From positions 1 through 11,300 of the forward strand of contig JAIRPS010000134.1 of assembly GCA_031256885.1 (NCBI GenBank): a DNA stretch of 11,300 nucleotides, written 5' to 3'. Shown piece after piece: positions 2,746-5,523 of this stretch (positions within the stretch are counted from its first letter, which is position 1; every line of letters begins with the position of its first letter). The notes beneath the pieces were generated by a model. It searched no databases and was not told the DNA's origin. It saw only the letters and a list, made by a program, of their open reading frames with translations. The position numbers and the translations under genes were made by a program. Source of the DNA: Bifidobacteriaceae bacterium (GTDB taxonomy: Bacteria > Actinomycetota > Actinomycetes > Actinomycetales > WQXJ01).

Positions 2746-2942
2746 CTCGTGTTGAGCCGCCGAATGTGCCTGTAACCCAGACGCCGTTCGCTTCTTGCTG
2801 CGCTCAACCGCTCTAACTGATCCTTTGATCTCGGGTTACCCGGCTGTTCACCGCACGCCAGCGATTCGCGTTTGGCTGGCGACACAGTCCGCACAGCTGC
2901 ACTTTAACCCTCCAACCCTTGATCCACTACAAAGGAGCAATC
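2746..2942 (+). promoter_or_regulatory. structured metYX leader, candidate translational riboswitch
   Basis: By eye the leader can fold in two incompatible ways. Fold A: GUUGAGC (2751-2757) pairs with GCUCAAC (2802-2808); inside it CGAAUG (2761-2766) pairs with CGUUCG (2785-2790); and the enclosed GUAACCC (2772-2778) pairs downstream with GGGUUAC (2833-2839), making a pseudoknot. Fold B: GGGUU (2833-2837) pairs with AACCC (2914-2918), AUC (2828-2830) with GAU (2921-2923), and UCCUUUG (2821-2827) with CAAAGGA (2930-2936), which buries the metY ribosome site. A stable hairpin CGCCAGC/GCTGGCG (2856-2862/2875-2881) lies between. There is no poly-U terminator, so control would be of translation. 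I do not recognise the SAM-I, SAM-IV or T-box core sequences. Pairings are seen directly; the switch function is inference. Confidence 0.5.
2931..2937 (+). promoter_or_regulatory. metY ribosome binding site
   Basis: AAAGGAG lies five bases before the ATG at 2943 and fixes that ATG as the start; an in-frame TTG at 2919 is upstream of this site and cannot use it. Its first six bases (with C2930) are complementary to UCCUUUG at 2821-2827 in the leader. Confidence 0.85.
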
Positions 2943-4262
2943 ATGAGCGACAACTGGTCTTTTGAGACACGTCAAATCCATGCCGGGCAAAACCCCGACC
3001 CCACCACTGGCGCACGCGCCCTGCCAATTTTCCAAACCACCTCCTATGTCTTTGACGATGCCGAACAAGCTGCCCGCCGTTTTGCGTTGGCTGAGCTTGG
3101 CCCCATCTACACGCGCCTAACCAACCCAACTCAGGAAGTCGTCGAAAACCGCGTTGCTGCCCTGGAAGGCGGGGTAGGTGCGTTGCTGACGGCATCGGGC
3201 GCCAGTGCTATCACTTTGGCAATTTTGAACATTCTGGGCGCGGGCGACCACATTGTTTCTTCTGCCTCACTGTACGGCGGAACCTACTCACTGTTCCGCA
3301 ACACTTTGCCTAAATACGGCATTGAAACCACTTTTGTTGACGACCCCGGTGACCCTGCCGCTTGGCGGGCAGCGATCCGTCCTAACACCAAACTGTTGTT
3401 TGGCGAGACCATCCCTAACCCGAAGATCGACATTTTCGACATCGAAACTGTGGCGCAAATCGCTCACGAGGCTGGCTTGCCGCTGTTTGTTGACTCAACC
3501 GTTGCCACACCCTACCTGATTCGTCCCATCGAATGGGGAGCTGACGTGGTAATTCACTCGGCGACCAAGTATCTTGGCGGACATGGTGCGGCGCTTGGTG
3601 GCGTGATTGTTGACTCCGGACGCTTTGACTACACCACCACACCTGGGCGCTACCCTCAGTTCACTGAACCGGACCCTGCCTATAACGGCCTGGTTTTTGG
3701 TGAAGCGCTTGGCCCCAACAGTGCGTTTGGTGCCAATGTGTCTTTCATTATCAAAGCTCGCGCCCAGTTGTTGCGTGACATTGGCCCAGCCATTTCGCCT
3801 TTCAACGCTTTCTTGCTCGCGCAGGGCATTGAAACCTTGTCTTTGCGGATTGAAAGGCATGTTGCTAATGCTGGGCGGGTGGCCGCATACCTAGCTGGCC
3901 GTCCCGATGTTCAGCAAGTTCACTATGCTGGCTTGCCCAGTTCGCCGTACTACGAGTTGGCGCAGAAGTATTGTCCTAAGGGTGCGGGCGCTGTTTTGGC
4001 ATTCGAGTTGGCTGGCGGTGCTAAGGCTGGTCAAGCGTTTGTTTCAGCGCTCAAACTGCATTCCAATGTGGCCAATATTGGCGATGTTCGTTCCTTGGTG
4101 ATTCACCCGGCTTCAACCACCCATTCGCAGCTTTCGCCAACTGAGCAGGCCTTGTCTGCTGTGACGCCAGGCCTGGTCCGGTTGTCGGTTGGTTTGGAAG
4201 GGATTGACGATATCCTGGCTGACTTAGAGCTTGGTTTCCAAGCCGCCCAAGCAGTCGCCTAG
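2943..4262 (+). CDS. metY: O-acetylhomoserine sulfhydrylase (aminocarboxypropyltransferase) MetY
   Basis: A 439-residue PLP enzyme of the Cys/Met metabolism family, cytoplasmic. It joins O-acetylhomoserine and sulfide to give homocysteine and acetate. Visible marks: FETRQIHAGQ.PDPTTGARA.PI.QTTSYVF at the N-terminus, the YTRLTNPT block (Y56, R58), the SGASAIT segment, DSTVATPYL.RPIEWGADVVIHSATKYLGGHG with the PLP lysine at K209, and the C-terminal GDVRSLVIHPASTTHSQLS...RLSVGLEGIDD. The length of about 430-440 separates it from the shorter cystathionine gamma-synthases (about 380-400), as do the insertion around YPQFTEPDPAYNGLVF and IKARAQLLRDIG. metX follows 16 bases after its stop, supplying the substrate. 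Start chosen by the AAAGGAG site; control is likely through the palindrome and leader upstream. Confidence 0.95.
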   Translation: MSDNWSFETRQIHAGQNPDPTTGARALPIFQTTSYVFDDAEQAARRFALAELGPIYTRLTNPTQEVVENRVAALEGGVGALLTASGASAITLAILNILGAGDHIVSSASLYGGTYSLFRNTLPKYGIETTFVDDPGDPAAWRAAIRPNTKLLFGETIPNPKIDIFDIETVAQIAHEAGLPLFVDSTVATPYLIRPIEWGADVVIHSATKYLGGHGAALGGVIVDSGRFDYTTTPGRYPQFTEPDPAYNGLVFGEALGPNSAFGANVSFIIKARAQLLRDIGPAISPFNAFLLAQGIETLSLRIERHVANAGRVAAYLAGRPDVQQVHYAGLPSSPYYELAQKYCPKGAGAVLAFELAGGAKAGQAFVSALKLHSNVANIGDVRSLVIHPASTTHSQLSPTEQALSAVTPGLVRLSVGLEGIDDILADLELGFQAAQAVA

Positions 4263-4278
4263 TCAAACGGAGTGTACG

Positions 4279-5523
4279 ATGCCGCAGCCCGGCCTTGGTC
4301 AGACCACACCAGTTTCGCAACCAGTCGCTTTGCAGGCAGCCAGCAAGCTGGCTGCGGGTGGGCAACCTGGTTTTGAGGGTCGTTCGCCAAGGCCGGGCGA
4401 CCGGATTCCAGCTTCCGGTGCGTGGCGTCAAGGTGACCCGGTGGGTGACCGTCTTTTTGCCAATCTTGGTTCGCTCAAGTTAGAAACCGGTGGTCAGTTA
4501 CCTGTCACTTTGGCTTACGAAACTTGGGGGAAGCTTAACCGTGCTGGTGACAATGCGGTGCTGGTTTTGCATGCACTGACCGGTGATTCTCATATTCGCG
4601 GACCGGCTGGGCCTGGGCATCCGACTGCCGGCTGGTGGTCGGCTTTGATTGGCCCTGGCGCGCCGGTTGACACTGACCGGTTTTTTGTGATTGCACCTAA
4701 CGTTTTAGGCGGTTGCCAAGGTTCTACCGGCCCGGCTTCGGCCGGGCCGGATGGGCAACCTTGGGGTTCGCGTTTTCCGTACTTGACCATTCGTGATCAG
4801 GTGCAAGCTGAGATTGCGCTGGCTGACCATCTGGGTATTTCGCAGTTCGCTTTGGTGATTGGCGGATCGGCTGGGGGTATGCGCGTGTTGGAATGGGCGA
4901 TCATGGCACCTGACCGGGTGGCTGCGATTGTGCCGGTTGCTACTACGGCGCATAGCAGTGCTGATCAGATTGCTTGGGCGCACGCCCAACTGTTGGCTAT
5001 CCGCGCTGATCACTATTTCCTGGGTGGTGATTATTACAATCAACCTCCTGGTCACGGGCCGCATGTTGGTTTGGGTATTGCCCGGCAGATTGCGCACACA
5101 ACCTACCGGTCTTCTTTGGAATTGGATCACCGGTTTGGCCAGACACCGCAGGGTGATGAGAATCCTTTTGGTGGGGGTGGCCGTTTTTCGGTGCAGTCAT
5201 ATTTGGAGCATCATGGGGCAAAATTGGCTTTGCGTTTTGACGCTAACTCTTATGTGGTGCTGACTGAAGCGATCTTGTCGCATGATGTGGGCAGGGCTCG
5301 CGGTGGTGTGGTTGCGGCGCTTGGTGGTGTCAAAGCGCGCGCTTTGGTGGTGGCGGTTGATTCGGACCGTCTTTATCTGCCAGAGCAATCGCAGGTCATT
5401 GCTGCGGGTATTCCTGAAGCTGAGCCTGTTCATACGGTTCACTCTGATTATGGCCATGATGGTTTTTTGATTGAGTTTAAACAGCTTGCTCCGGTGATTC
5501 GGCGTTTTGCAGAGCAGGCGTAG
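4279..5523 (+). CDS. metX: homoserine O-acetyltransferase MetX
   Basis: A 414-residue alpha/beta-hydrolase-fold acyltransferase that transfers acetyl from acetyl-CoA to homoserine, making the substrate of MetY. The core begins at PASGAWRQGDPVGDRLFANLG and shows LAYETWGKLN, HALTGDSHI, the nucleophile elbow GGSAGGMRVLEWA with Ser197, and the other triad members Asp363 (SDRLYLPEQ) and His393 (YGHDGFLIE). The usual elbow in this family is GGSMGG or GGSLGG; alanine after the serine is a small deviation. Start at ATG 4279 is supported by GGAG six bases upstream, which leaves about 40 Pro/Gly/Ala-rich residues before the conserved core, a loose N-terminal extension. Because some family members are homoserine succinyltransferases, acyl specificity is inferred from metY linkage. 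The last 47 bases overlap the oppositely oriented sterol-carrier-like gene. Confidence 0.95.
   Translation: MPQPGLGQTTPVSQPVALQAASKLAAGGQPGFEGRSPRPGDRIPASGAWRQGDPVGDRLFANLGSLKLETGGQLPVTLAYETWGKLNRAGDNAVLVLHALTGDSHIRGPAGPGHPTAGWWSALIGPGAPVDTDRFFVIAPNVLGGCQGSTGPASAGPDGQPWGSRFPYLTIRDQVQAEIALADHLGISQFALVIGGSAGGMRVLEWAIMAPDRVAAIVPVATTAHSSADQIAWAHAQLLAIRADHYFLGGDYYNQPPGHGPHVGLGIARQIAHTTYRSSLELDHRFGQTPQGDENPFGGGGRFSVQSYLEHHGAKLALRFDANSYVVLTEAILSHDVGRARGGVVAALGGVKARALVVAVDSDRLYLPEQSQVIAAGIPEAEPVHTVHSDYGHDGFLIEFKQLAPVIRRFAEQA

Follow-up and report, generated by a model that had tools for sequence, protein, structure and literature searches.

Among the matches listed in the literature searched, the closest described system was metL of Streptomyces lividans TK24, a predicted leader peptide before metNIQ (PMC8079986). 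The sections of that paper dealing with metL describe a leaderless frame that ends in RCMCRRMCAF* (asterisk, stop codon), with RRMC near the stop, and precedes a methionine gene, no classical terminator having been found. The leaderless cysteine uORFs of mycobacteria (PMC4633059; also Canestrari et al. 2020, as represented in citing papers) are likewise short and lie before sulfur genes, with a cysteine codon near the end. For Mycobacterium, Propionibacterium acnes and Bifidobacterium longum (cbs), PMC1262725 also predicted cysteine leader peptides; these actinobacterial peptides lack obvious terminators, and the paper says that its authors observed no conserved RNA structures ahead of methionine operons. 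The uORFC-8-2 motif before cysS in Rhodobacterales is presented in PMC8632094 as an attenuator operated by the ribosome, its Cys codons lying in a uORF that takes part in the pairing.

The window (the whole stretch of 11,300 nucleotides analyzed here) carries metY and metX behind a leader of about 195 nt. The preliminary description had proposed that this leader is regulatory, which was supported in that it is under selection in relatives, and had read the controlled genes as methionine biosynthesis genes, which agreed with the family models for metY (NF005872) and metX (NF047917). Like metL, the leader contains a uORF ending close to RRMC, and this uORF is predicted to be leaderless. Whereas metL, in the sections cited, has 29 residues and precedes a Met importer, the uORF found here encodes 7-9 residues in most leaders and precedes metY or metX; PMC8079986 also presents metL, in those sections, without conserved alternative pairing and not as a family. 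The mycobacterial uORFs described in PMC4633059 contain clusters of Cys codons, and the peptides outlined in PMC1262725 contain runs of them; in contrast, there is one Cys as a rule here, with an invariant CGA-AUG before it, together with methionine genes and the pairings 1:2 and 2:3 described below. The uORFC-8-2 motif of PMC8632094 differs in that it carries a tandem pair of Cys codons as well as an intrinsic terminator, and it belongs to another phylum and another gene. We did not find this uORF element described in the literature searched, and no Rfam family covers it in the loci examined. From its features, the element would work like known ribosome-mediated attenuators, yet we class it as a separate variant, since the Cys codon cluster of the mycobacterial uORFs is absent (the window uORF has one Cys codon).

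A known riboswitch was rejected as an explanation. The Rfam 15 search returned no family, riboswitches and T-boxes included, at gathering score in the window, in agreement with the preliminary description, which had recognized no known SAM riboswitch core; with the leader stretch alone (2650-2960), the sole hit was to NiCo and is ascribed to chance (E 7.6), and the uORF-bearing relatives examined gave no match. SAM-IV (RF00634) occupies the same place before metY in loci L070, L072, L077 and L078, but neither the window nor any of the examined relatives that have only the uORF matched it. In the metY leader of L072, SAM-IV (1234-1339) is followed about 10-60 nt downstream by the Cys-rich uORF MCCCLRMPRR*, possibly as two sensors in series. 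A lysine riboswitch (RF00168, 95.6 bits) was also observed at 6845-7017 in L032, downstream of metY.

The features of the window are as follows.

2711-2716, + strand: predicted promoter -35 box TTGACT, by sequence reading
2734-2739, + strand: predicted promoter -10 box TATAAG, by sequence reading (or TAAGAT, 2736-2741, in the register of the relatives)
2749-2775, + strand: uORF, predicted to be leaderless, GTG TTG AGC CGC CGA ATG TGC CTG TAA, VLSRRMCL*
2759-2790, + strand: predicted hairpin 1:2, pairing CGAAUG 2761-2766 with CGUUCG 2785-2790 and CUG 2770-2772 with CAG 2778-2780
2777-2792, + strand: region 2, CCAGACGCCGUUCGCU, which pairs with region 1 or region 3
2860-2875, + strand: region 3, AGCGAUUCGCGUUUGG, alternative partner of region 2
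2932-2937, + strand: Shine-Dalgarno sequence (SD) of metY, AAGGAG, from the sequence
2943-4262, + strand: metY, O-acetylhomoserine/O-acetylserine sulfhydrylase (NF005872, 738.6 bits, cut-off 703)
4231-5523, + strand: metX, homoserine O-acetyltransferase (NF047917, 509.9 bits, cut-off 475), given as the longest ORF with a putative start

The predicted promoter has the spacing TTGACT-17 nt-TATAAG, and TAAGAT lies 7 nt upstream of the uORF GTG. A sigma-70 pattern scan of 2650-2960 listed no promoter; its rule accepts only those -10 hexamers that end in T, so the promoter given here was placed by reading the sequence. Upstream of it, we observed a tandem array at 2493-2643 (unit of 31, or 63, bases, GAAGACCACACGGGTACGCACGCTGAACCCA, 3.9 copies). 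An inverted repeat at 2444-2501 (20-nt arms, 95% complementary, 18 nt apart) sits between the divergent gene and this array and is possibly a terminator.

The upstream reading frame

The window uORF lies directly downstream of the -10 box and consists of eight codons and a stop. We collected 80 metY loci from named genomes, which made 81 with the window (further loci were added later), and found the uORF ahead of metY in 72 of the 81, window included. This search accepted any Arg codon before Met-Cys; CGA preceded ATG in 72 of 72, and it is rare in the metY genes themselves (81 genes with 1593 Arg codons, 21 of them CGA). The nine loci without the uORF comprised L003, L007 and L076, which have less than 300 nt upstream, the SAM-IV-bearing loci L070, L072, L077 and L078, and L017 and L075, in which neither uORF nor SAM-IV was seen.

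A larger set of 159 metY and metX leaders was reduced to 151 non-redundant ones, of which 138 had the uORF (130 metY, 8 metX); separate metX genes thereby carry a copy of their own. The 13 others were L003, L007 and L076, cut by contig ends, and L017, L070, L075, L077, L078, L112, L223, L224, L228 and L233. The criterion was CGAATG with RTG 5-21 nt upstream in any frame, so that the constancy of CGA-ATG in the 138 leaders is partly built in, and CGA is more freely tested in the set of 72 loci. The start codon (ATG in 136 leaders, GTG in 2) shared the frame of CGA-ATG in every one of the 138, at a distance from CGAATG of 9, 12, 15 or 18 nt in 119, 17, 1 and 1 leaders, respectively. The motif TANNNT was present 5-9 nt ahead of the start in 131 of 138, the script favoring starts with such a box. 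The codon after ATG was TGT in 98 leaders, TGC in 35, CGC in 3, CCC in 1 and CGA in 1; a Cys codon follows Met in 133. Along a tree built from 72 MetY proteins, at least 10 changes fell on this codon and at least 23 on the one preceding CGA, and the best MetY identity to the window among relatives was about 81%.

Comparison of the leaders shows the predicted uORF, its reading frame and its place behind the -10 box. Judged by comparison only, from the frame kept in every leader and the exchange of synonymous Cys codons, the uORF appears to be translated. The usual peptide in relatives is M(S/T/QT)RRMC(R/C/S), with RMCR in 94 of 138 leaders, and MLSRRMCR of L108 has the architecture nearest to that of the window.

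Competing helices in the leader

Comparison of the leaders also shows a predicted 1:2 hairpin, in which region 1 is the end of the uORF, and a competing 2:3 helix; the two are mutually exclusive and one contains the uORF, a feature of attenuators. The 1:2 hairpin is part of the minimum free energy (MFE) fold of the window leader and has an extra outer stem in which GUUGAGC 2751-2757 pairs with GCUCAAC 2802-2808. The homologous hairpin was 90.3% paired in 66 aligned leaders (alignment A1, 66 of 71 prepared rows; L032, L055, L057, L064 and L110 were excluded for divergent or long loops). Because it is nearly invariant, covariation support for this hairpin is weak, and conservation is what mainly argues for it.

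In the 2:3 helix of the window, CCAGACGC 2777-2784 pairs with GCGUUUGG 2868-2875, and UCGCU 2788-2792 pairs with AGCGA 2860-2864. This helix comprises 13 pairs with an energy of -19.6 kcal/mol, equaled by 4 of 500 shuffles (3 of 100 for an automatic version). It is absent from the MFE fold with nothing covered and appears once region 1 is covered, as evident from folds of 2777 to 2880, 2890 or 2945, the last without the first 2:3 pair.

For the relatives, regions 2 and 3 were analyzed in 125 of the 138 leaders. The region 2 core starts 1-8 nt after the stop in 121 of the 125 (full range, 1-39 nt), and region 3 is usually CGTGCGC, exact in 93 of the 125 versus 3.5% in shuffles. An exact 2:3 complement of at least 7 nt was found in 61 of 74 leaders (74 of 78 examined), and partners swapped among leaders paired worse, with 1 of 1000 reaching the observed mean. 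Matched changes occurred in 7 of 28 rows with a non-consensus region 2, against 1.05 expected; an altered region 2 was matched by an altered region 3 in L031, L200/L201, L202/L204 and L207/L210. Altered pairs were still complementary in L012 and L040, and Luteimicrobium L055 and its kin L212 showed a complementary 2:3 with a displaced region 2. The remaining 21 of the 28 were without an exact complement, region 2 having been misplaced by the script in some. An energy test of 2:3 gave a modest result, with 28 of 138 leaders at p<=0.05 versus 6.9 expected. We also observed a moderately conserved G+C-rich block (~CCGCGGG.CGG.cg.cG.c.GC) between region 3 and the SD in metY leaders of the Cellulomonas group.

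The preliminary description had expected competing folds, and these were borne out, though the conserved helices are two others than those it named. Its sequences are all present in the window: GUAACCC (2772-2778), GGGUUAC (2833-2839), AACCC (2914-2918), UCCUUUG (2821-2827) and CAAAGGA (2930-2936). The proposed pseudoknot of GUAACCC with GGGUUAC can pair in the window, and the proposed SD-masking helix is part of the window leader MFE, but neither is conserved in relatives. The uORF had been overlooked, and GUAACCC includes its stop codon. The leader MFE has a z of -2.09 against shuffles (equal or better in 5 of 200). Shuffled leaders contain a mean of 0.9 complementary 7-nt pairs, and 51% carry at least one; the window leader contains 4, reached by 3.6% of shuffles, and the chance of a 7-nt complement to the SD is 2%. 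Across the 138 leaders, the stop-codon region had a complete 7-nt complement in 6 (mean longest 4.09 nt versus 3.88 in shuffles) and the SD block had one in 10 (4.60 versus 4.28), the SD block being misplaced in some rows, including L108 and L113. In L108, whose uORF is closest to that of the window among the relatives, complements reached no more than 3 nt (stop-codon region) and 4 nt (SD). On these values, the pseudoknot and the SD helix were rejected as conserved parts.

Several candidates for the output step were examined. An intrinsic terminator was rejected, as the pattern scan of 2650-2960 gave none. A general region 3:4 helix was rejected as not above chance; a common region 4 scored 16.4 versus 16.3 in shuffles (58 of the 78 leaders tested). 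SD access in relation to ribosome position rose in 13 and fell in 7 of 78 leaders; it rose in 18 and fell in 6 in a set of 119 of the 138 (Wilcoxon p 0.23), which left out rows with no SD found or with a leader below 70 or above 260 nt. In the window, the SD was freer at the Met stall than at the stop when the fold ended at 2942 or 2945 (0.43 versus about 0.1) and was not freer in folds ending at 2950-2960, so that SD masking by folding depends on the cut point. SD unmasking as a family-wide output was not supported by the folding of the 78 and 119 leaders.

Probable ribosome-mediated attenuation and the alternatives

We think that the metYX leader is probably a ribosome-mediated attenuator, most likely sensing the charging of Met (and/or Cys) tRNA. 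The metYX transcript would begin at or beside the leaderless uORF with its conserved end Arg(CGA)-Met-Cys-x-stop. A ribosome with AUG in its A site would cover the RNA roughly as far as the stop codon extends, so that region 2 stays free, whereas one with the stop codon in its A site would cover region 2. When methionyl- (and/or cysteinyl-) tRNA is scarce, the ribosome would halt at AUG or UGY, covering region 1; region 2 would stay free, 2:3 would form and metYX would be expressed. With the amino acid plentiful, the ribosome would reach the stop and, since region 2 begins 1-8 nt behind it, block 2:3, and expression would fall. If no ribosome is present, 1:2 would form and likewise exclude 2:3. 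The 2:3 helix may free the SD or prevent (Rho-dependent) termination, and with 2:3 as the ON state the switch would respond in the direction that a biosynthetic attenuator should. The uORF ahead of metY/metX has both a Met and a Cys codon; counting against attenuation, each is a single codon, unlike the classical runs. An attenuator relying on one methionine codon would test the minimum stalling that such a switch needs.

The same attenuator could instead respond to cysteine as a sign of sulfur status, like the mycobacterial leaderless cysteine uORFs, and we regard this as possible but somewhat unlikely. It is favored by the 133 leaders, of 138, that carry the Cys codon, and by Cys-rich variants such as RMCC, RMCCC and RMCCY, CRMC in many leaders and MCCCLRMPRR* in L072. 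However, 5 of the 138 have no Cys after Met: three metX leaders (L132, L197 and L198, all MTRRMRS*) and the metY leader L209 (MARRMRMFS*) have no uORF Cys at all, and in L072 the Cys codons precede Met. Met is present in 138 of 138, though the search required it. Because L132, L197, L198 and L209 lost Cys and kept or, in L209, doubled Met, Met seems favored over Cys as the signal, on the small basis of four leaders. It is also conceivable that the nascent RRMC-x peptide arrests the ribosome on a metabolite (SAM or Met) and that tRNA charging is not what is read; we judge this unlikely. Most leaders place exactly one Met and one Cys in a constant setting close to the stop, CGA is preceded by Arg or Cys in 125 of 138, and the identity of the CGA codon is kept, but CGA may be kept for pairing instead, the position following Cys is free to vary (R, C, S, A, L, Y, T, H) and the peptide has no more than 7-9 residues in most leaders.

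The readings that dispense with the ribosome fared worse. A DNA operator formed by the CGAA...TTCG palindrome, bound by a repressor just downstream of the promoter, is very improbable: an inverted repeat near the promoter is indeed made by region 1 together with the 3' portion of region 2, but the distance from stop to region 2 ranges over 1-39 nt, none of the 138 leaders departs from the frame, and each of the 133 with TG after the ATG has T or C as its next base, although that base is unpaired in the model. The ligand-binding riboswitch of the preliminary description drew on competing folds, and SAM-IV does stand at the equivalent place in four relatives. It found no support, with no Rfam match in the window or the uORF-bearing relatives examined, and we consider it the most improbable reading of all: the conserved core is a reading frame, the putatively leaderless uORF ending Arg-Met-Cys-x-stop, accompanied by two competing helices other than those first named. 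That guess gives way to a putative ribosome-read sensor with a defined eight-codon part. Going beyond attenuation as such, the 7-9-codon CGA-AUG-UGY uORF could be a dedicated methionine sensor before metY/metX, working through a single methionine codon that follows a constant, seldom-used arginine codon, possibly with an arresting RRMC peptide; we offer this tentatively and rather doubt it. If true, the uORF of the Cellulomonas group and Bifidobacteriaceae would do what SAM-IV does before metY in other actinobacteria. The metY relatives carry the uORF, SAM-IV or both (L072), so that metabolite and tRNA sensing could be compared side by side.

Distribution among relatives

A model of the uORF and hairpin (R1), built from 66 sequences, matched 180 of 200 genomes of the Cellulomonas-centered family (E<=0.01) and 13 of 18 genomes of the family of the Bifidobacteriaceae metagenome-assembled genome (MAG) with locus L001 (E<=0.1), whose MAGs presumably come from termite guts. 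In 45 loci from these two family searches, metY was downstream in 40; in L168 a piece of metY on the opposite strand is all there is, the sequence of L172 ends early, and L186-L188 are weak matches elsewhere. Thirty lower-scoring family matches, chosen for inspection, lay before metY (20), before metX (7) or elsewhere (3). Of the 20 family genomes without an R1 match, 16 have a metY-like gene, and these 16 loci showed a uORF in 8, none in 5, a truncated upstream region in 2 and a distant paralogue only in 1.

Over 296 genomes of the class, R1 matched 25, mostly weakly. A strict uORF pattern was found in 16 of 394 class genomes versus 3 for the reversed control; 15 of these lie outside the Cellulomonas center, and the five inspected were chance-like or unclear. 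A wide spread in the class was rejected on these few, weak or chance-like matches. In genome G384, contig C12 carries two inverted uORF matches (520821-520878 and 522035-522092) 1.2 kb apart, perhaps an assembly artefact. Four class genomes (L119, L120, L121 and L123, near 1500) have a short uORF, MCCRMC(R/S)*; the gene 170-240 nt downstream of it looks, from its sequence, like a winged-helix regulator. On the reverse strand of L186, from a genome of the L001 family, a uORF MCCRMCGQQA* near 1500 is followed after about 120 nt by genes for the ATPase and permease of an ABC transporter, which by eye resemble an importer of the sulfonate/nitrate type.
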